Source: Oscillospiraceae bacterium (GTDB lineage: Bacteria > Bacillota > Clostridia > Oscillospirales > SIG519). From it: a DNA stretch of 45,782 nucleotides. The stretch is from the NCBI GenBank assembly GCA_015067255.1, contig SVMS01000015.1, positions 1-45,782 of the forward strand, in the 5' to 3' direction. The position numbers were made by a program, and so were the translations under genes. Under the pieces are notes generated by a model. It was not told the DNA's origin. It was given only the letters and a program-made list of their open reading frames with translations, and ran no database searches. Shown here piece after piece: positions 14,550 to 26,539 of the stretch. Positions within the stretch are counted from its first letter, which is position 1; each line of letters opens with the position of its first letter.

Positions 14550-14912
14550 ATGGAAAATAAAAAAAATTTCATTAAAACTGTAGTTACAGGGGTAGTTACA
14601 GGCTTTGTAAATGGGTTTTTCGGGGCAGGGGGCGGTCTTATTTTAGTTCCGCTTTTAAAAAAGCTTTGTAATGAGAAAACGGCGCACTCAACCTCGGTAG
14701 CCGTTATTTTACCTCTTTGCGTTGTGGGATATTTTATTTATTCAAGCAATATAACTCAGCTTTCTGTTGAGGCGTTGCCCTTTATTATAGGCGGTGTTTT
14801 AAGTGCGCCGTTGGGAGCGTTATTTTTAAAAAAGCTGTCCCCGACGCTGTTAAAAAAGCTTTTTGGCGGCTTTATGATTTTTTGCGCACTCAGAATGATA
14901 TTTACAGGATAA
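14550..14912 (+). CDS. TauE/SafE (TSUP) permease, N-terminal half
   Basis: About 120 residues with four hydrophobic segments. It has the TSUP hallmark GFVNGFFGAGGGLILVPLL near the N-terminus, and a later PLGALFLKKLSP. TSUP proteins export or import sulfite, sulfonates or small organic acids, and normally have two such halves in about 250 residues. Here the frame stops at TAA 14910-14912, and the next gene, in the same frame, supplies the second half. ATG 14550 follows GAGG with six bases between. It opens the unit that continues into the NADH dehydrogenase. Confidence 0.75.
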   Translation: MENKKNFIKTVVTGVVTGFVNGFFGAGGGLILVPLLKKLCNEKTAHSTSVAVILPLCVVGYFIYSSNITQLSVEALPFIIGGVLSAPLGALFLKKLSPTLLKKLFGGFMIFCALRMIFTG

Positions 14913-14918
14913 AAAAGT

Positions 14919-15299
14919 ATGGATAATTTTTTGTATATTTTCATCGGATTTTTGTCGGGAATACTCAGCAGTATGGGCTTTGGCGGCGGCACCGTGCTTG
15001 TCTTGCTGCTTACAAGCTTTATGGGAGTTTCACAAATAAAGGCGCAGGGCATAAATTTGCTTTATTTTATTCCCGTTGCTGCGGCATCTCTTATTTTTCA
15101 TTTTAAAAATAATGCCGTTGATAAGGCTGTGGCATCACAGCTGATTGCGTGGGGAATTATAGGCTCATTCTTCGGAGCTTTAACAGCCAATTTTCTTGAA
15201 GGCAAAATATCGCTGAAATTTATTTTTGCCCTTTTTGTTTTAGCCTTGGGATTAAAAGAAATTTTCAGTAAAAAGAACGAGAAGGAAAAGGAAAAATGA
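14919..15299 (+). CDS. TauE/SafE (TSUP) permease, C-terminal half
   Basis: 126 residues repeat the TSUP pattern: GFLSGILSSMGFGGGTVLVLLL at the start, further hydrophobic spans, and a charged tail (KKNEKEKEK). It lies in the same frame as the preceding half, separated only by a TAA and two codons before its ATG; AGGA 14906-14909 could be its SD. The two may form a heterodimeric carrier, or be one gene broken by a nonsense change. Its stop overlaps the ndh2 start as ATGA, so it belongs to the EET operon. The substrate is unknown. Confidence 0.75.
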   Translation: MDNFLYIFIGFLSGILSSMGFGGGTVLVLLLTSFMGVSQIKAQGINLLYFIPVAAASLIFHFKNNAVDKAVASQLIAWGIIGSFFGALTANFLEGKISLKFIFALFVLALGLKEIFSKKNEKEKEK

Positions 15300-17215
15300 A
15301 AATAGTAATAATAGGTGGCGGTTACGCAGGAGTTTTGACAGCCAAAAAATTAGCAAAGCTATCAAAGAAAAGAAAAACCATTGACATAACTCTTATTGAT
15401 AAAAACTCTTATCATACTATGCTGACAGAGCTTCATGAGGTGGTGGGAGGAAGAGTTGAACAGGATAACATAAAAATTGATTTGAATAAAATTTTTTATT
15501 CAAGGCCGGTACGCATCGTACAGGACGAAATACTATCGGTAGATAAAGAAAAAAGAACAGTTTACGGAAAGAAAAAGGCATACGATTACGATATTCTTGT
15601 TGTTGCCACAGGCTCACAGCCCACATATTTCAATGTAAAGGGCGCAAAAGAAAACGCTTTCCCCCTATGGAGCTTTGATGATGCAGTAAGACTTAAGGAG
15701 CATATTGAAGGGCTTTTTTGCTCGGCTAAGAATGAAAATAATAAAATCCCGATATTTGTAATAGGAGCAGGCTTTACGGGAGTTGAAACAGCAGGAGAAA
15801 TAGCGGAATATGTGCCGATACTTTGTAAAAAATACGGTGTTTCCCGTGAAAGAGCAGAAATATATTTAATAGATTTACTGGACAGAGTTATTCCCACTTT
15901 ACCTCAAAAGCTTTCTTCAAAGGTGCAAAAAAGACTTGAGAAAATGGGCGTTAAGGTTATGCTTAAAACAAACGTAACCGAAATAAGCCAAAGCAAAATA
16001 TTTTTAGATAAAAAAAGCTTTGATACACAGACAGTTATATGGGCGGCGGGTATAGAGGGCGCAGAGATTAGCCAAAATATGTCTGAAAAAAATCTCAAAG
16101 GAAGGCTCAAAACAGATGCTTTTCTAAGATGTACAGATTATCCCGAAATTTTTGCAGTGGGAGATTGCCTTTATTATGAATATGAGGGAAGCTGTGTTCC
16201 CAGAATGGTGGAAAATGCAGAGCAAAGTGCGGAAATCTGCGCTCACAATATTTTTGTTACAGCTTTTAATAAAGGCTCTTTAAAGGAATATAAGCCCTCT
16301 TTTCACGGGGTTATGGTGTGTGTAGGCAGCCGTTACGGTGTGGCAAGGGTAGGCTTTAAAAACAAAATGTTTAATTTGCCTTCCTTTTTAGCTATGTTTG
16401 CAAAGCATTTTATAAATATAGTTTATTTTTGTGAAGTGTGTGGCTACAACAAGGTAGCAAGCTATATAAAGCACGAATTTATAGATATAAAACACCGCCG
16501 AAGCTTTTTGGGAGGACTTTTTGCAATTAAGCTTCCTGCAATTCTTTGTGTACCTCTGAGGGTATGGTTAGGTGCAGTGTGGGTTTTTGAAGGGGTAATG
16601 AAAATTGTCGGCGGTTGGTTTTCAACGCCTCAGTTAAAGTCATTTTTTGAAGGTGCAAACAGCTTTTATGACAGTATTCTAAATAATACTGCAAGGCACG
16701 TAAGCTTGACAACAGATGCCCTTTCCGCCGCAACAGGCGCAGGAGGTCAGGAGGCGGAAAGTATGGGAAGGGTTATTTTTAATTTACCCATATTCAATAT
16801 AGTCCGTTTTCTTTTTGTGTGCGGTGCCGACCTTTCAAAAGCAACGACGAATGACTTTGCATTTAAAATTGACGTTCCTCTTTTAGACGTTTTTATAAAT
16901 AATGTTGTTTTGCCCTCAGCCACAATGCAAATGACAATGCAGATTGTAATAGTTATAGCTGAAATTCTCATAGGCTTTGCAATTATGGGCGGACTTTTTA
17001 CCTTTTGGGCATTGTTGGTTTCCTTGATATTGCAAATGATGTTTATAACGACAACGGGACTTTATCTCAACACCTTTTGGATGATTTTTGCGGCAATAGC
17101 GTTGCTTATAAACAGCGGACGCTGTCTGGGGCTTGATTACTACGCTTCGCCTCTTTTGAAAAAAGGCTGGAAAGCGTTGCCCTTTGTCAGAAGGTGGTAT
17201 ATATATCATGACTGA
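15296..17215 (+). CDS. ndh2: Type II NADH dehydrogenase with C-terminal membrane domain (Ndh2, EET type)
   Basis: This single-subunit flavoenzyme passes electrons from NADH to a quinone. Residues 1-400 are the NDH-2 core: FAD-binding IVIIGGGYAGVLTAKKL, ATGSQPTYF, NAD-binding FVIGAGFTGVETAGEIAEY, and IFAVGDCLYYE. From about 402 to 639 there is an extra membrane domain, with a first hydrophobic block at about 405-435 and at least three helices from about 540 to 610, faintly DoxX-like. Ordinary NDH-2 is about 400 residues; Listeria Ndh2 of the EET locus has such a membrane extension. It overlaps both neighbours by 4-8 bases in the plus-strand EET operon. Confidence 0.85.
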   Translation: MKIVIIGGGYAGVLTAKKLAKLSKKRKTIDITLIDKNSYHTMLTELHEVVGGRVEQDNIKIDLNKIFYSRPVRIVQDEILSVDKEKRTVYGKKKAYDYDILVVATGSQPTYFNVKGAKENAFPLWSFDDAVRLKEHIEGLFCSAKNENNKIPIFVIGAGFTGVETAGEIAEYVPILCKKYGVSRERAEIYLIDLLDRVIPTLPQKLSSKVQKRLEKMGVKVMLKTNVTEISQSKIFLDKKSFDTQTVIWAAGIEGAEISQNMSEKNLKGRLKTDAFLRCTDYPEIFAVGDCLYYEYEGSCVPRMVENAEQSAEICAHNIFVTAFNKGSLKEYKPSFHGVMVCVGSRYGVARVGFKNKMFNLPSFLAMFAKHFINIVYFCEVCGYNKVASYIKHEFIDIKHRRSFLGGLFAIKLPAILCVPLRVWLGAVWVFEGVMKIVGGWFSTPQLKSFFEGANSFYDSILNNTARHVSLTTDALSAATGAGGQEAESMGRVIFNLPIFNIVRFLFVCGADLSKATTNDFAFKIDVPLLDVFINNVVLPSATMQMTMQIVIVIAEILIGFAIMGGLFTFWALLVSLILQMMFITTTGLYLNTFWMIFAAIALLINSGRCLGLDYYASPLLKKGWKALPFVRRWYIYHD

Positions 17216-18074
17216 AAAAATCAATATATCAACGCTGTTGTCAGAGGTAAGCGAAATTATAAAAGGAGCGCTGTTAGGCGCTCCCGAGCTTATATTGACC
17301 TATACTCAGCATCTTACAAATGCTACGGGGAAAATGTTCAGAGCAAGGCTTTTGCTTGTTTCGTCCTGGGAAGCTGATAAAGAAATATCGCAAGAGGCTA
17401 AAATTTTAGCGGCAGCCGCAGAGCTTGTGCATCTGGCAAGCCTTGTGCACGATGACGTTATGGACAGAGCCGACAAACGCAGAGGCATACAGACACTCAA
17501 CAGCAAATTTTCCGATAAAGAGGCTGTGATATGCGGTGATTATATTATAGCAATAGCAATAAAGCTTATTTCAAGGATTGAGCTAAAAGAGAAAAAGAAG
17601 AATTTTCCTGACTATGCTTCAAAAATGTGTGAGGGACAGCTCAGGGAATTTCTTAATATAAATAATGTAACAATGAGTGCCTATACCTATTTTAGAATTA
17701 TAAAAGGCAAAACAGCGGCGCTTTTTGAAGCTGTATGCTTTGCAGGGGCAAGTCTTTGTGAAGCAGAGGATATAAACAGATATAAAAAAATCGGGCATTA
17801 TTCCGGAATGGCATTTCAGCTTATGGACGATTACAGAGATGTAAAGCAAAGCACAGAGCTTAAAAATGCAAATTCCGATATAAAAAACGGAGTTGTTACT
17901 TTACCTCAAATTCTTGCCTTTTGCAAGGGACGGGAATTCGGAGAGGAAAAGACCTATGAATGTGCAAAAAAATATATACAAAAAGCAATAAAAGAAATAG
18001 AGCTGTTAAAGGCAACGGAGTCAAAAAAACAAGCTTTGAAGGATATCATTTTAAAAATACAGGAGAAAAAATGA
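17208..18074 (+). CDS. trans-Polyprenyl diphosphate synthase (DmkB-like)
   Basis: It builds the long isoprenoid chain for a quinone. The 288-residue protein has the first aspartate-rich motif in LVHDDVMDRADKRRG, the CxxQ-like helix region and the second motif in QLMDDYRDVKQS; GKMFRARLLL precedes them in place of the usual GK-RP-R substrate site. ATG 17208 lies inside the end of ndh2 (8-base overlap), with AGAAGGTGG ahead. The next gene is a UbiA prenyltransferase, as with dmkB/dmkA of Listeria, so a demethylmenaquinone-type product dedicated to EET is likely. Short-chain specificity cannot be excluded. Confidence 0.85.
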   Translation: MTEKINISTLLSEVSEIIKGALLGAPELILTYTQHLTNATGKMFRARLLLVSSWEADKEISQEAKILAAAAELVHLASLVHDDVMDRADKRRGIQTLNSKFSDKEAVICGDYIIAIAIKLISRIELKEKKKNFPDYASKMCEGQLREFLNINNVTMSAYTYFRIIKGKTAALFEAVCFAGASLCEAEDINRYKKIGHYSGMAFQLMDDYRDVKQSTELKNANSDIKNGVVTLPQILAFCKGREFGEEKTYECAKKYIQKAIKEIELLKATESKKQALKDIILKIQEKK

Positions 18075-18931
18075 AGGGCTTTTTAAAGTATGTAGAAATA
18101 ACAACTAAAATAACAAGCTTTTTCCCCTTTATAATGATTATAGTCTATCTTTTGAAATCGGGCTTTGAAATAGATATCACTAAAACTGCAGTTTTCTTTC
18201 TCTCAATGCTTTTATTCGATTTATGCACAACGGCAATAAATAATTATACCGATAAAAAAGAGCTTACCGTAAGCAAAAGGATAGCTCTTTTTACAATTAT
18301 TGTTTTACTTTTTTCAAGCACAGCATTGGGAATATGGCTAGTTTTTTTAACAGATATATCGGTGCTTATTTTGGGAATTATCTGCTTTTTTTGCGGATTT
18401 ATTTATAACTGCGGACCTATTCCTCTTTCGGCACTGCCCTTGGGAGAGCTTTTTTCAGGTTTGTGCTACGGCTTTTTTATTCCCCTTATTCTTATGTATA
18501 TAAACGTGCCGTCGGGATTTTTATATTCCTTTAAAGTGGGAAGCGAGATAATTCTCACTGTCAATACTCTTGAGCTATTAAAGCTTATTTTAATTTGTAT
18601 TGCGCCCATTTTTGCCACAGCGGGAATAATGCTTGCCAACAACATCTGCGATGTGGAATACGATATAAAAATAGGACGTTATACTTTAGCATATTATCTT
18701 AAAAATAAGGCTTTAATTCTTTTTAAGCTTTTATATTTTATAATTTTTATTTCCTTTATAATTTTAATTTTTTTAAAGAAAAGTTTTATTTTTTCTCTTC
18801 TCTTTTTTATACCCGTATATAAAAATATAAAGACTTTTGAAGAAAAACAGATAAAAGAAGAAACTTTTATTACATCTGTTAAAAATTATATACTTGTAAT
18901 GGTGGCGGAAATTTTATGTCTGGCGCTTTAA
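18071..18931 (+). CDS. UbiA/MenA-family prenyltransferase (DmkA-like)
   Basis: This membrane enzyme probably prenylates 1,4-dihydroxy-2-naphthoate to demethylmenaquinone. The 286-residue protein has about eight hydrophobic spans. The second aspartate motif is clear in NNICDVEYDIKIGR. The first, usually NDxxD-like, is reduced to TTAINNYTDKKE. It overlaps the preceding gene as ATGA with AGGAG upstream, and the following eetA by 16 bases. The context of ndh2, polyprenyl synthase and EetA supports an EET quinone. Confidence 0.83.
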   Translation: MKGFLKYVEITTKITSFFPFIMIIVYLLKSGFEIDITKTAVFFLSMLLFDLCTTAINNYTDKKELTVSKRIALFTIIVLLFSSTALGIWLVFLTDISVLILGIICFFCGFIYNCGPIPLSALPLGELFSGLCYGFFIPLILMYINVPSGFLYSFKVGSEIILTVNTLELLKLILICIAPIFATAGIMLANNICDVEYDIKIGRYTLAYYLKNKALILFKLLYFIIFISFIILIFLKKSFIFSLLFFIPVYKNIKTFEEKQIKEETFITSVKNYILVMVAEILCLAL

Positions 18932-19254
18932 ATAAATATCTCAAAGAATTTATTATAATAATTATAACGGTATTATTGCTCTGTGTTCTTTTATGGACTT
19001 TTTTGTTTCGTAAAGAGGGCGAAAAAGCCTTTGTATATAAAAATGATGAGCTTTTGTTCAGCCTGTCTTTAACAGACCAAAAGCTAATAGAAATAGAAAA
19101 TACACATATAGTTTTAGAGCTTGACGGCAAAGGAAATATAAAATTCAAAAGCTCCGACTGTCCCGATAAGCTTTGCATAAAAAAAGGCAAAATCTCAAAG
19201 CAAGGAGATTTTGCCGCTTGTATACCCAACGGAATTTTAATTCAAATTCAATAG
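18916..19254 (+). CDS. eetA: NusG domain II-like membrane-anchored protein EetA
   Basis: 112 residues: one N-terminal membrane helix (about 10-32), then an extracytoplasmic beta-rich domain ending SDCPDKLCIKKGKISKQGDF and CIPN, the Cys pattern (CPDKLC ... C) typical of NusG domain II-like proteins encoded with Gx-transporter proteins. In Listeria, EetA with EetB is required for electron transfer from the quinone pool to surface flavoproteins. It is the last gene of the plus unit; its last bases overlap the end of the convergent apbE gene by seven bases, so no terminator separates them. Confidence 0.8.
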   Translation: MSGALNKYLKEFIIIIITVLLLCVLLWTFLFRKEGEKAFVYKNDELLFSLSLTDQKLIEIENTHIVLELDGKGNIKFKSSDCPDKLCIKKGKISKQGDFAACIPNGILIQIQ

Positions 19255-20285
19255 CTTTTTATAATTTCTCCATTTTGTAATATCCATATGGCTTTTGCCT
19301 TTTTGTATTTTTTTAAAAGCTCTTTTCCTTCTTCTATACTAAGATTAAAAAGAGCAGTTGAAAGGCAGTCGCCGTCGGAAGCGTTTTGACTTATTATTGT
19401 TACGGCTCTGAAATTGCGGCAGGGATAAAGAGTTTTCGGGTCTATTATATGGCAGTAATTTATGTTGTCTACAGTATAATATCTCTGATAGTCACCACTT
19501 GAGGTAACGGCTGTATCGGCTTGTATTTTTTCGGTAAATATAATTTCATCTTGCTCAAAGGGGCTTTGAATGTCAACACTCCAGGGCTTACCGTTAAGCT
19601 TTGTGCCTATTGCTTTTACATTTCCGCCGACACTTACAATTCCGTTTTTAAGCCCCTTTTCTTTTAAAGCACTACATAGCATATCTACGGCATAGCCCTT
19701 TGCAACAGCGCCTACGTCAAGAGAAAGATGCTTGTCTGAAATATATACTGTGCTGTTTTGCACATCAATTTTTACATTGTCAAAATCAGTGTGCCTTGAA
19801 GCGCTTAGCAGGGCTGAATAATCAGGTAGACTCGCATTTTCGGGATTGTTTATCCCATTTTGTCTGTATTCGTGCCATATTTCTAAAACACTGCCCATAG
19901 CCGTATTTACATTTTTTTCGGTTTTTTCATAGGCTTCTTTGCAAAAAAGTAAAAGGTCAATAATTTCTTTGTCAACCTTTATTTCTTTTACTCCTGCATT
20001 TTCATTTATTGTTTTGATATTATTTGTTTCATAGCTGTTATAGATATCATAAAGCTGATGATATTTTTCTAAAAAAGCTTTAGAAAAGCTTAAATACTGT
20101 TCAAATTCAGCCTCATCTTTACAGTAAAAAACAACGCTTGTAACAGTATCAAAAGGGCCGATAAAAGAGCCTTGAAAGCGTTTTAAAGAGGGTTGACAGG
20201 AGCAAAGACACAACAAAAGCACCAAAGCAGATAAAATAAATCTGCTTTGGTGCTTAATATATGATAATTTAAAAATTTTTTTCAA
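19248..20285 (-). CDS. apbE: FAD:protein FMN transferase, lipoprotein (ApbE/FmnB)
   Basis: It attaches FMN covalently to Thr or Ser of extracytoplasmic proteins, using FAD. The 345-residue protein has a lipoprotein signal (LLCLCSC, lipid Cys near residue 29), FDTVTSVVFY, NTAMGSVLEIWHEY, LDVGAVAKGYAVD, VSVGGNVKAIG, TSSGDYQRYY and the nucleotide-site HIIDPKTLYPC. It starts at TTG 20285, four bases after the lipoprotein gene's stop, with no strong SD of its own, so translation is probably coupled. A 16-bp hairpin followed by U-rich sequence lies inside its signal-peptide codons (20217-20255). The obvious client is the neighbouring PplA-like lipoprotein. Confidence 0.9.
   Translation of the reverse strand: MKKIFKLSYIKHQSRFILSALVLLLCLCSCQPSLKRFQGSFIGPFDTVTSVVFYCKDEAEFEQYLSFSKAFLEKYHQLYDIYNSYETNNIKTINENAGVKEIKVDKEIIDLLLFCKEAYEKTEKNVNTAMGSVLEIWHEYRQNGINNPENASLPDYSALLSASRHTDFDNVKIDVQNSTVYISDKHLSLDVGAVAKGYAVDMLCSALKEKGLKNGIVSVGGNVKAIGTKLNGKPWSVDIQSPFEQDEIIFTEKIQADTAVTSSGDYQRYYTVDNINYCHIIDPKTLYPCRNFRAVTIISQNASDGDCLSTALFNLSIEEGKELLKKYKKAKAIWILQNGEIIKSY
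20217..20255 (-). terminator. Strong hairpin with U-rich tail inside the 5' part of apbE
   Basis: On the minus strand AAGCACCAAAGCAGAT pairs perfectly with ATCTGCTTTGGTGCTT (7-base loop), then TTTTGTTGTG. It looks like an intrinsic terminator for eetB-pplA, but sits about 30 bases into the apbE coding sequence. It could make apbE expression substoichiometric to the lipoprotein. Confidence 0.55.
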
Positions 20286-20289
20286 AAAA

Positions 20290-21318
20290 TCACATCGTTC
20301 CCGCTTTTTTGAAGGCTTGCTTGATTTTATCTATTGCTATTGTAACCTCTGCTTTGATGTCGCTTGAGGTGGGCTTTTTGCTGTCGTCAAGAGCAATATT
20401 TCCTATATCTGTTATAGTTTTTCCCTTAAGAAGCTTTTCAAGGCTCATAGCCTGTTCGTTCCATTCCTTGCCTATTGATGAGGCAGCCTTCATTCCGTAA
20501 TCTTTTCCAAGCTCTGTTTTTGTTTTAAGCTGTGTGGAAGGCTCTGAGGTTATTTTTCCGCTGTTGTCAAAATTGATTGCGGAGCGTATCTCGTCTATTT
20601 TGCTTGCCGTAACATTTCCCGCTGTTCCGTAGCTTACAGCAGTTACTGTAATATCAGCCTGTACGGTGCCGATGTCCTGAGAAGCGTCCTTTGAATTTTC
20701 AATGGTGCTTACAATTCCAAGACCTAACATATCGTCCTTTTTGGAGCCTGAATTTGTTGCGTTTTCAAAAGCTTTTTTTATAGCTTCCTTAAAATTGCCG
20801 ATTGAAATTGTAACTGAGCCTTTGAGGTCGCTGCCGGTGGGATACTGATTTTTATCTACAGCAATACCTTCAATCTCTTTTAAGGTTTTTCCTGTTACAT
20901 AGGTGCTGAAGCTTTTAGCCTGCTCATACCATTCCTTGCCTATTGAAGATGCTTGCTCCATATTATAGCTGTCTTTAAGCTCTGTTTTTGTTTTGGCTTG
21001 ATATGACAGGTCGCTTGTGATTTTTCCTGAGGCTGAAACTGTTGCTTTAACCTCTATTTCATCTACTATGCATTTGACGATTTTTCCTGCATCGTCTACG
21101 CAAATTGCGGCAACGGTACAGTTTGTTATACAAGAGCCGTCCTCTGAGGAGGCGGAGGTTGCCTTTTGACTTGCAACTATACCAAGACCGATTTTTACGG
21201 TATCGGAATTTGTAACCATATCGGAAATATCAGAGCTTATAGTCTGATTGTCTGCAGGGGAACAGGCACTCAAAGAAAAAATAAGAATTAAAAGACAAAT
21301 TGAAATAAATTTTTTCAT
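20290..21318 (-). CDS. Two-repeat surface lipoprotein, PplA-like candidate flavoprotein
   Basis: 342 residues with a lipoprotein signal (FSLSAC, lipid Cys19). Two tandem repeats follow: about 41-188 and 197-342. Both share KTKTEL-K-YxM, ASSIGKEWxEQA, GKT, and a P-T-SD-K--VTI ending. Each repeat ends with Asp and Thr spaced like the ApbE target motif (D-x-x-S-G-A-T): D164...T170 and D320...T326, but the central S-G-A is not kept. Lying between eetB and apbE, it is the best candidate for the terminal FMN-bearing electron carrier, analogous to Listeria PplA. Covalent FMN is inferred. The AGAAAGG SD is good. Confidence 0.72.
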   Translation of the reverse strand: MKKFISICLLILIFSLSACSPADNQTISSDISDMVTNSDTVKIGLGIVASQKATSASSEDGSCITNCTVAAICVDDAGKIVKCIVDEIEVKATVSASGKITSDLSYQAKTKTELKDSYNMEQASSIGKEWYEQAKSFSTYVTGKTLKEIEGIAVDKNQYPTGSDLKGSVTISIGNFKEAIKKAFENATNSGSKKDDMLGLGIVSTIENSKDASQDIGTVQADITVTAVSYGTAGNVTASKIDEIRSAINFDNSGKITSEPSTQLKTKTELGKDYGMKAASSIGKEWNEQAMSLEKLLKGKTITDIGNIALDDSKKPTSSDIKAEVTIAIDKIKQAFKKAGTM

Positions 21319-21336
21319 AATATAACCTTTCTGTAT

Positions 21337-21834
21337 TTAGTTTTTTATATGTGAAAGTGCGGGCATAATAAGCTTGAGAGAAACAGCCGTTATACTGCCG
21401 AAAATACAACCGAAAGCTATATAAACGGGCATGATTTTTAAAAAGAAAGGGTTTGAATAGATAAGGCTTATTACAAAAAGCTGGCCCACATTATGCATTA
21501 CACCGCCTATTATGCCCAGAAAAAGAGTTTTTGCATTGAAAAATTTAAAAATTATCATAGTAAATACTGCCAAAAAGCCTCCTCCTAAGCTTAAAAAGCA
21601 AGCTACAGCGCCTTTTGTAATAAATACAAATAAAGCTTTTAAAAAACAAATTGTTATTGCTCTTTTGGGAGAAAGCAATATTAAAGCATACATTGTTACA
21701 ATGTTGGAAAGACCTATTTTAACTCCCGGAAAAGCAGAAAAAACAGGCGGGAACAGGCTTTCGGCAAAGGAAAGCACAATAGCAAGGGCAAAAAGCATAG
21801 CAGAGAGAGAAAGAGAGTATATTTTATTTTTCAT
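21337..21834 (-). CDS. eetB: Gx-transporter-family membrane protein EetB
   Basis: About 165 residues, nearly all hydrophobic, with five to six spans. It has the family pattern ESLFPPVFSAFPGVKIGLSN, then GGVMHNVGQ near the middle (the Gx/HepI-like family, often labelled heptaprenyl diphosphate synthase component I). In Listeria, EetB pairs with EetA in flavin-based EET. It is the first gene of the minus unit eetB-pplA-apbE. The upstream sequence is extremely AU-rich and I see no SD; ATG 21834 is preferred over a TTG at 21870. Confidence 0.8.
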   Translation of the reverse strand: MKNKIYSLSLSAMLFALAIVLSFAESLFPPVFSAFPGVKIGLSNIVTMYALILLSPKRAITICFLKALFVFITKGAVACFLSLGGGFLAVFTMIIFKFFNAKTLFLGIIGGVMHNVGQLFVISLIYSNPFFLKIMPVYIAFGCIFGSITAVSLKLIMPALSHIKN

Positions 21835-24364: not shown

Positions 24365-24414
24365 ACAGGCTGTCGCCCTGTAAAACAGAAAAAACAGCCT
24401 GTACTCACCGCCTT
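24365..24414 (-). promoter_or_regulatory. SD separated from its start codon by a hairpin
   Basis: On the minus strand AAAGGCGGTGAG (about 24404-24415) is followed by ACAGGCTGT pairing with ACAGCCTGT (24394-24402 with 24365-24373), then TTGTA and the ATG at 24359. If the hairpin is folded, SD and ATG come within about seven bases, the optimal distance. If unfolded, they are about 45 bases apart. Confidence 0.55.
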
Positions 24415-25664
24415 TATTTTAAATTTAAGGAATTTCTGTATAAAATAACGCAATCCTGTTCATCGGCAATTCCCGTAATAACGTCCTGAGCAAATGCACG
24501 GCAGGACGGAGCACCGCAACAGCCGCAGTCAAGTCCCGGTAAGCATTCAACAAACTGCTCAATTTGGTTTTCAATCTGTAAAGCTTTGCTTACATCGTTA
24601 GAAAGCTTTAATGCAGAATTGTATTTCAGGTCCTTTTTCCAATGATATCTTTCATCGGTATCAGATGCTAATTTATTACAGGATATAGGCAGATATTTTC
24701 TGAGTCTGTTAAGTCTTGTTCTTGCAACGAAGGGGTTTTCAAAGTTGAGAACACCGCCTACACAGCCGCCGGGACAAGCGTTAAGCTCAATAAAATCAAG
24801 ATTGTCAAGTCTTCCGTCCTCAACCTCTTCAAGCACCTTGGTAACATTCTCAATACCGTCTGCCGCCAAGTATTTTTCCTTGAGAAGAGCAGCGGACTCA
24901 CCGCCTGAGCCTGCCCAGCTTATACCCACTATACCTGAGCTTATTAAAGAGGGCGGGTTTTGAAGCTTGTTCATATGATTTACTATTTTTTTATAGACCT
25001 CTGTGGCGGAAATAGCGCCGTCTATAACATTATATGAAAAGCCGATGGGAGAAAATGCGTTTGTAACCTTTGCAGGACAGGGGGAAATAAAGAAAATACC
25101 TATTTCGTCCTCTTTAAAGCCCTTTTCTTCCATAGCCTTTTTTCTTGCTAAAATTGCCGCAAGCTCAACAGGAGCGATTATGGGAAGAACGTTTTCGCAA
25201 AGGTGGGGAAAACGCACCTGAATAAGACGCACTACCGCAGGGCAGGCAGAGCTTATGACAGGAGTACGGAGTTTTCCCGAGCTTAAAAGCTGTCTTGTAA
25301 GGTCGGAAATCATTTCCGCAGCCTTGCTGACTTCGTAAACATCGTCAAACCCAAGCTCGATAAGGCCTTGCAAAACGTAATTTATATCGTCTAAATTATT
25401 AAACTGTCCGTAAAAGGACGGAGCAGGAAGAGCAATTGACCATTTATAATTTTTAATACTGTCAAGACTTGTTGTTACTGCTTTTTTTGCGTGATTGGGG
25501 CATTTTCTTATACATTCTCCGCAATCGACACAAAGGTTGGGATTTATTGCAGCCTTGCCCTGACGCACTCTTATTGCCTCTGTAGGACATCCTCTCATGC
25601 AATGGATACAACCCTTGCATTTATCTTTGTCGAGGGTAACAGAGTGAAAAAGCTCGCTGTTCAT
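24414..25664 (-). CDS. Putative sensory [FeFe] hydrogenase (HydS-like)
   Basis: 416 residues. Two [4Fe-4S] ferredoxin motifs are at Cys16/19/22/26 and Cys45/48/51/55. The hydrogenase domain keeps the four H-cluster Cys: Cys141 (SSACPAV), Cys196 (SPCPAK), Cys297 and Cys301 (NACPGGC). The proton-relay Cys normally preceding Cys141 is Ala140, as reported for sensory HydS of Thermotoga. A C-terminal LPGLDCGCCGAPSC plus Cys405 forms another Fe-S site; no PAS domain is present. Neighbours (ATPase, DRTGG, PHP) match group C/D sensory systems. It probably senses H2 or redox state and is not a bulk catalyst. AAAGGAG precedes ATG. Confidence 0.88.
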   Translation of the reverse strand: MNSELFHSVTLDKDKCKGCIHCMRGCPTEAIRVRQGKAAINPNLCVDCGECIRKCPNHAKKAVTTSLDSIKNYKWSIALPAPSFYGQFNNLDDINYVLQGLIELGFDDVYEVSKAAEMISDLTRQLLSSGKLRTPVISSACPAVVRLIQVRFPHLCENVLPIIAPVELAAILARKKAMEEKGFKEDEIGIFFISPCPAKVTNAFSPIGFSYNVIDGAISATEVYKKIVNHMNKLQNPPSLISSGIVGISWAGSGGESAALLKEKYLAADGIENVTKVLEEVEDGRLDNLDFIELNACPGGCVGGVLNFENPFVARTRLNRLRKYLPISCNKLASDTDERYHWKKDLKYNSALKLSNDVSKALQIENQIEQFVECLPGLDCGCCGAPSCRAFAQDVITGIADEQDCVILYRNSLNLK

Positions 25665-25695
25665 TTTTGCACAGCTCCTTTCACTTATAAGTTAA

Positions 25696-26124
25696 TTACT
25701 GTTCTACATAGATTTTCATTGTTATTTTTGTGCCTTGACCGAGTTTTGTTTCTATATTCATTTCATCGGTATATTTTTTCATATTGGGAAGTCCCATTCC
25801 GGCGCCGAAGCCCAAAGAACGAACATTGTCGGGCGCAGTTGAAAAGCCCTCACGCATAGCAAGCTCTACATCAGGGATACCGGGACCGTAGTCGGTTAAA
25901 ATTATTTCAACGCTTTCGGGGGAAAGAATAACGTCAGCCTCTCCGCCGTTGGCGTGAATTACCATATTGATTTCACCCTCATACATAGCAATAGAGGTTT
26001 TTCTGATAGTTTCAGGAGAATAGCCAAGGCGCTTCATAACCTTTTTTACCTCTCCCGAAGCTTCGCCTGCCGACATGAAATCAGTGCCGTCAACTATGTA
26101 GTGAAGCTCAACATTATCAGCCAT
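25696..26124 (-). CDS. Anti-sigma-type ATP-binding protein (RsbW/SpoIIAB-like)
   Basis: 142 residues of a single GHKL ATPase domain. N box EGEINMVIHANGG, G1 box TDYGPGIPDVE and G2 box GFGAGMGLPNMKKY are all present. Such proteins are serine kinases/anti-sigma factors, or ATP-dependent regulatory switches. Next to the hydrogenase-like sensor it probably relays the signal by phosphorylation or partner switching. No obvious STAS-domain or sigma partner lies in the window. GGAGG precedes ATG, and its first bases overlap the end of the upstream DRTGG gene by eight. Confidence 0.85.
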   Translation of the reverse strand: MADNVELHYIVDGTDFMSAGEASGEVKKVMKRLGYSPETIRKTSIAMYEGEINMVIHANGGEADVILSPESVEIILTDYGPGIPDVELAMREGFSTAPDNVRSLGFGAGMGLPNMKKYTDEMNIETKLGQGTKITMKIYVEQ

Positions 26125-26470
26125 TGGAACCCGCCTCCCTAAGACCGTTAAGATATAAAATTCCGCAGGCAGGATACATTCTTTTTTCTGTTGAAAGAAT
26201 TACCATACCGTGATTTTCCGCAAGAGCAAGAACGTTTGCATCGGGTTCCTTTCCGCGAACAAACACGATACAGCACATATCCATCATTTCTGCTGTACGT
26301 ACTACCTGAGGATTACAAAGTCCTGTAAGAAGCACAGACTGGTTTTTAACGTATGCAAGCACATCGCTCATCATATCGCTTCCGCAAGCGGAGAAAACCT
26401 CCTTGTCCACATTAGCCGCACCTGCAAGAACCTTTGCATCCAAAAGCTCTACGATTTCTTTGATTTTCAT
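26117..26470 (-). CDS. DRTGG-domain protein (first copy)
   Basis: About 117 residues: MKIKEIVELLDAKVLAG, then CGSDMMSDVLAYVKNQSVLLTG, CCIVFVRGKEPDAN and HGMVILSTEKRMYPACGILY. It shares the fold pattern of the second copy at 24030-24359 but is clearly diverged, so it is an old duplication within the operon. I chose ATG 26470 because homologues begin at this point and GAAAGG lies about 12 bases upstream; the open frame extends to 26518. It is the first gene of the sensor operon, 70 bases from the promoter. Confidence 0.8.
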   Translation of the reverse strand: MKIKEIVELLDAKVLAGAANVDKEVFSACGSDMMSDVLAYVKNQSVLLTGLCNPQVVRTAEMMDMCCIVFVRGKEPDANVLALAENHGMVILSTEKRMYPACGILYLNGLREAGSNG

Positions 26471-26539
26471 AAATGAGTCAGCCTTTCTGCTAAAAAATTT
26501 AATTATTTTTGTTATCAAAAAAATTATATTTGCGCTATA

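Follow-up and report, generated by a model that had tools for sequence, protein, structure and literature searches.

A clostridial variant of the flavin-based extracellular electron transfer locus with its own ApbE clade and a putative flavin-carrying lipoprotein

How might an electron-export chain operate when all of its gene families match those of a Listeria-type locus by name, yet its lipoprotein lacks the usual flavin-attachment motif and its genome lacks the known genes for making a naphthoquinone head group? This question is raised by nine genes at positions 14550-21834 of the window, by which we mean the whole stretch of 45,782 nucleotides that was analysed (contig SVMS01000015.1, from an Oscillospiraceae bacterium). 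The original prediction, made from the sequence alone, was of a near-complete flavin-based extracellular electron transfer (EET) locus in two convergent operons, and all nine genes were confirmed in place with a clear family match in Pfam or profile searches. On the plus strand, two half-size membrane proteins, the TauE/SafE-like TSUP1 (14550..14912, 120 aa; Pfam TauE 5e-19, profile positions 3-108 of 237) and the TauE-like TSUP2 (14919..15299, 126 aa; TauE 4e-19, positions 2-113 of 237), precede ndh2 (15296..17215), which encodes a type II NADH dehydrogenase of 639 aa (Pyr_redox_2 3e-45) that matches NDH-2 structures in the PDB over residues 2-354 (e.g. 5na1, 2e-52) and has a C-terminal membrane extension with hydrophobic segments at 413-605. 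Next come a dmkB-like polyprenyl diphosphate synthase (17208..18074; PF00348 2e-50) with both DDxxD motifs intact (DDVMD and DDYRD), a dmkA-like UbiA prenyltransferase of the DHNA prenyltransferase type (18071..18931; UbiA 2.5e-15) with the prenyl-diphosphate-binding motifs NNYTD and NNICD, and an eetA-like NusG domain II (NusG_II) protein (18916..19254; PF07009 5e-21), which has one N-terminal membrane helix and matches the solved Listeria innocua Lin0431 at 2e-4. The minus strand carries apbE, for a lipoprotein FMN transferase (19248..20285; PF02424 1e-64), a two-repeat lipoprotein in the PplA position (20290..21318; lipoprotein signal with Cys19, no Pfam family above cut-off) and, in the same block, an eetB-like ECF-S component (21337..21834) with a weak ECF_trnsprt match and a match to PF07456 (Hpre_diP_synt_I) at 1e-28, or 100 bits against a cut-off of 30.

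Because the plus-strand genes overlap or nearly touch (4 bp for TSUP2/ndh2, 8 bp for ndh2/dmkB, 4 bp for dmkB/dmkA) and eetA and apbE overlap tail to tail, gene spacing suggests two convergent transcription units, as had been proposed. Within the order, 16 of 147 genomes have homologues of the lipoprotein, and a public genome set gave at least 548 stretches with one, 80 of which were kept for comparison. ApbE is present in 81 of 94 related loci, and 81 of 95 lipoprotein genes have an apbE on their own strand no more than 600 bp away. In these loci phmmer found 43 ndh2 homologues; ndh2, dmkB and the lipoprotein gene (lip) occur together in 42 of them, all clostridial. Among these 42, dmkA is kept in 37, and the commonest order, ndh2-dmkB-dmkA-eetA-eetB-lip-apbE on one strand, is exact in 21. 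The gene set recurs beyond chance, and strains in culture such as Ruminiclostridium sufflavum DSM 19573, R. hungatei DSM 14427 and Mobilisporobacter senegalensis DSM 26537 carry the locus. The window's own arrangement, found in none of the other loci among the 94 compared, is convergent because the block eetB-lip-apbE is inverted relative to the common order. The TSUP pair (14550-15299) had been called an addition and is indeed peculiar to the window's locus (0 of 94); both members match the N-terminal half of the TauE profile, and the pair is translationally coupled to ndh2. No other gene family, such as a quinone-precursor importer, is shared by more than 11 of the loci.

By the published operational definition of a flavin-based EET locus, a flavinylation-associated gene cluster that includes an NDH-2 with a transmembrane helix (PMC8238504), the locus is a genuine member of the family in a clostridial variant, for its NDH-2 has a membrane segment and an extracytosolic lipoprotein-type ApbE lies in the cluster. 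EetA alone proves nothing in this respect, since its deletion in Listeria gave no EET phenotype (PMC9973259). The predicted Listeria-type set is thus borne out as far as family membership goes, but the lipoprotein is not a plain PplA. It has two repeats, at about residues 40-190 and 197-340, and the canonical [ST]GA[ST] is absent from both; Pfam FMN_bind (PF04205) does not match it above gathering score and matches 2 of 11 relatives, with a best E of 0.011. Pfam matches to Baseplate_J and TnsD, below cut-off and scattered among relatives, were put down to chance. At the place corresponding to the motif, the pattern among 95 distinct homologues is [DE]Lx[SAT][SG][VC]T, and its Thr hardly ever varies, which makes Thr170 (DLKGSVT) and Thr326 (DIKAEVT) the candidate flavin sites of the window's protein. 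The Thr170 column holds Thr in 91 of these 95 and Ser in the other 4; among the 91 with a second repeat, the Thr326 column holds 89 Thr and one Ser. Conservation alone is no proof of attachment at these residues, since Thr145, outside the proposed site, is conserved about as well. The residues before the conserved Thr are mostly SSV, ASV, TSV, AGC or ASC, the AEVT of the window's second repeat being an uncommon variant, and the canonical motif appears at site 1 in one of the 95 family members and at site 2 in none.

Profile alignments place this variant motif on the standard one. The family profile matches 2KZX at 1.9e-5, and larger alignments do so at 2.9e-4 and 4.8e-4, with the conserved Thr on the last residue of SGAT; a match to 8P2B, in whose crystal structure Thr67 bears FMN (PMC10339131), aligns Thr170 with Thr67, at an E of 0.16 that is weak and insufficient by itself. 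AlphaFold2 models of the lipoprotein (pLDDT 92.4 and 93.3) have three strands followed by helices, with Thr170 just ahead of the final helix of repeat 1, a placement known from FMN_bind proteins. Foldseek searches of the PDB with the full model and with repeat 1, however, gave nothing below E 0.001 and no FMN_bind structure in the top 50. The company that the variant repeat keeps in other loci suggests that it may be a flavin-carrier domain. A related two-repeat lipoprotein just upstream of ndh2 in L115 has DAVTGAT and DAVTGPT, aligned with the variant motif column for column. Besides the variant lipoprotein, L092 encodes a PplA-like SGAT lipoprotein immediately after apbE, and so does L043, where the contig ends within the gene. 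A longer protein beside an ordinary ApbE in L139 includes a repeat of the variant type (DVVASVS) and has a first part that is FMN_bind-like by eye, and FMN_bind fumarate-reductase-like proteins lie near the lip-apbE pair in L073 and L087. A variant motif is plausible because Klebsiella fumarate reductase keeps about half of its flavinylation when the standard motif is changed from G to A or from A to V (review PMC12052999).

The window's ApbE has its best PDB match in Listeria FmnB (7esa, 5e-38), keeps the catalytic Ser, His and Asp, and scores as an FAD:protein FMN transferase in the domain test. In its HxIxDPxTGxP motif, Leu286 replaces Gly. This Leu is found in 72 of the 78 ApbEs linked to the lipoprotein, whereas all 18 unlinked ApbEs of the same genomes, and FmnB, have Gly, a contrast that does not amount to 90 independent events since it follows a single deep split in the ApbE tree. 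One branch of the FastTree phylogeny, with support 100, separates linked from unlinked ApbEs; the window enzyme falls with the former and FmnB with the latter. Several further positions distinguish the two groups, among them 127 (Asn for Asp) and 129 (Ala for Thr). Only one ApbE is encoded in 25 of the 46 genomes that bear the lipoprotein family. From these sequence comparisons we infer that the window's ApbE and lipoprotein form a dedicated transferase-acceptor pair that still attaches FMN covalently. In the very feature by which PplA and FmnB are recognised, the putative electron carrier and the transferase of the locus are different, and the locus counts as a distinct clostridial variant.

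Other flavin-related genes lie elsewhere in the genome. In Listeria, EetB is the S-component for FAD export and RibU serves uptake (PMC9973259). The riboflavin/FAD transporter (fmnA/ribU), noted in the original prediction as lying outside the window, is partly accounted for: an ECF-S gene at C1:21325-21813, just downstream of an FMN riboswitch (L120:1456-2245 for gene and riboswitch), is likely RibU, but the genome has one ECF-T gene and hence no separate FmnA. Also present is an Rnf complex; its RnfG carries a canonical VSGAT and is the only FMN_bind protein found in the genome. An ordinary-type ApbE at C25:17149-17958 lies beside a second EetB-like gene, in divergent orientation (L135:6078-8010), which suggests a separate FAD-export and flavinylation pair for Rnf, and RnfG would be the natural client of this ordinary enzyme. 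Four related loci (L027, L028, L032 and L033) combine the lipoprotein-ApbE pair, here with the motif AGCT, with EetA and EetB but have, in place of NDH-2, an RnfB-like ferredoxin protein (about 265 aa), so that the pair apparently also serves Rnf-type chains. The C25 contig carries, in addition, a full-length OLE RNA (L135:10407-11030; Rfam RF01071, 460 bits), a large noncoding RNA that is unusual in a clostridial genome of 1.84 Mb; a gene for a membrane protein comes next. Within the window, a Fe-hydrogenase-like sensor with an Fe-S domain, adjoined by small HATPase and DRTGG/PHP proteins (24414-26518), looks like a redox-regulatory cluster.

The original prediction also held that electrons pass through a dedicated demethylmenaquinone. 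The synthase and the DHNA-type UbiA enzyme are present, but MenD, MenB and MqnA-type genes are absent from the genome, which is 97.6% complete. MenD (PF16582) is missing from all 46 lipoprotein-bearing genomes, the window's included, as is MenB over its cut-off; neither MqnA-type nor MqnD genes were found in the window's genome, nor a convincing futalosine gene in the 46. MenB matches that stayed below cut-off (158.7 bits at best, against 342.7) occur in 21 genomes and were judged from score to be other enoyl-CoA-hydratase-family enzymes, and the only three matches to PF02621 (31-42 bits) were taken, likewise from score, as solute-binding proteins. Because MenD was also not detected over cut-off in 293 other sampled members of the class, by a model that found its positive controls, its absence is a trait of the class and not peculiar to this genome. 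Demethylmenaquinone could therefore come only from an imported head group such as DHNA, and we think that the head group is probably scavenged. A quinone-dependent chain without head-group synthesis would have to rely on import, as in Lactiplantibacillus plantarum, or on a head group of an unfamiliar kind. Quinone-auxotrophic L. plantarum performs EET with exogenous DHNA, and dmkA and dmkB are not strictly needed for it (PMC10746273). The TSUP pair was considered as a DHNA importer and set aside, as it occurs in no related locus.

On balance, we think it reasonably probable that the locus encodes a clostridial flavin-based electron-export chain with a scavenged head group, its own ApbE and a doubly flavinylated variant lipoprotein. 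NDH-2 would oxidise cytosolic NADH and reduce a prenylated naphthoquinone that the polyprenyl synthase and the UbiA enzyme build in place from a head group, most likely DHNA, supplied by other microbes. EetB, working with the general ECF-T and ATPases of the cell, would export FAD, and the locus ApbE would link FMN by a phosphoester bond to the adjacent lipoprotein at Thr170 and Thr326, attachment sites of the type [DE]Lx[SAT][SG][VC]T in place of Dxx[ST]GA[ST]. The doubly flavinylated protein could hand quinol electrons to extracellular acceptors, presumably surface flavins or iron. The evolutionary side of this proposal, that Clostridia evolved a dedicated ApbE clade together with an acceptor domain and a motif of their own, distinct from the cell's general, Rnf-serving ApbE, seems to us somewhat the better bet.

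Other readings of the lipoprotein deserve consideration. It may not be flavinylated at all and may instead act as a structural or FAD-handling partner of ApbE and EetB, in which case the locus ApbE would modify other substrates, such as RnfG and RnfD, and electrons would leave quinol through those proteins or through free flavin shuttles. The missing canonical motif, the Foldseek result and the presence of an RnfG with a canonical VSGAT in the same genome all fit such a role. However, the second, ordinary ApbE with its EetB-like neighbour can serve Rnf, both repeats retain the motif Thr throughout the family, more than half of the family-bearing genomes have a single ApbE, and the 2KZX profile match puts SGAT on the variant motif, so we regard this reading as unlikely. 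That the locus is an ordinary Listeria-type one with a standard PplA is highly improbable, even though every gene family matches by name: besides lacking an FMN_bind match and [ST]GA[ST], the lipoprotein is paired with an ApbE on the opposite side of the 100-support branch from FmnB, and L092 and L043 carry PplA-like SGAT proteins downstream of apbE in addition to the variant lipoprotein.

The two ends of the chain are open to alternatives as well. Its carrier could be a prenylated compound with a different, self-made head group. Consistent with this idea, none of the 46 genomes has MenD, MenB or a convincing MqnA, dmkA is kept in most loci with ndh2, dmkB and lip although MenD is missing over cut-off in the sampled members of the class, and the UbiA enzyme falls below the cut-off of every DHNA-prenyltransferase model (213 bits against 289 for PRK06080.1-4, E 6e-63). 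DHNA prenyltransferase is nevertheless its best family by a wide margin, and lactic acid bacteria that have these genes but lack men are known to draw on exogenous DHNA; that DHNA-dependent EET of L. plantarum can dispense with dmkA and dmkB also speaks against a different head group (PMC10746273), and we consider it rather improbable. At the outer end, the chain might feed a dedicated secreted reductase of the fumarate or urocanate type, or serve redox sensing, and not reach minerals or electrodes. The same chain is stated to power an extracellular fumarate reductase in Listeria (PMC9973259), and the fumarate-reductase-like neighbours in L073 and L087 point the same way, but the window's genome yielded RnfG as its sole FMN_bind protein and so offers the chain no flavinylated fumarate reductase of this kind. 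We would grant this outlet a minor chance here and continue to favour electron export through a doubly flavinylated lipoprotein.

If correct, this proposal would extend the range of ApbE substrates by a new class, one that belongs to EET chains with a scavenged head group and that searches for FMN_bind and [ST]GA[ST] would miss. Surveys of flavinylation count substrates by exactly these features, and some ApbE genes are still without a known substrate (PMC8238504). The variant lipoprotein family, which lies beside ApbE in many clostridial loci, is a concrete candidate for such an orphan substrate; it offers two specific threonines as candidate sites and an enzyme clade to match. The consistent absence of head-group synthesis in its bearers predicts that electron export by these anaerobic bacteria depends on cross-feeding of DHNA, and a transferase-acceptor pair with a different motif would lend itself to two-colour flavin tagging.

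One of the closest known systems is the Listeria monocytogenes FLEET locus (ndh2, dmkA, dmkB, eetA, eetB, pplA, fmnA, fmnB), with which the window shares an NDH-2 with a membrane tail, a DHNA prenyltransferase, a polyprenyl synthase, EetA, EetB and an ApbE beside a two-repeat lipoprotein. It differs in that the lipoprotein has neither an FMN_bind match nor SGAT sites, the ApbE belongs to another clade, there is no local ECF-T (FmnA) gene, no men genes were found in the genome, the last three genes are inverted and a TSUP pair stands in front. With L. plantarum the window shares ndh2 and dmk genes without a complete quinone pathway, and EET of that organism depends on exogenous DHNA (PMC10746273); L. 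plantarum, however, has a standard pplA and belongs to the Bacilli. At the level of the domain, CbFMN4 domain 1 (PDB 8P2B) and 2KZX resemble the variant repeat in that the SGAT Thr falls on its conserved Thr in profile alignment, although similarity is low and neither is among the top Foldseek matches of the lipoprotein model. PplA/cAD1 orthologues carry one or two SGAT motifs (PMC7074142), and the window family departs from these PplA/cAD1 precursor lipoproteins and FMN-bind2 two-domain proteins (PMC7074142, PMC11334425) in having [SA][SG][VC]T for SGAT and a different core, YGM..S.IGKEW..Q...GKT, while sharing with them two homologous domains of about 150 aa, an adjacent ApbE, and a C-terminal helix that comes after the Thr of the attachment position.
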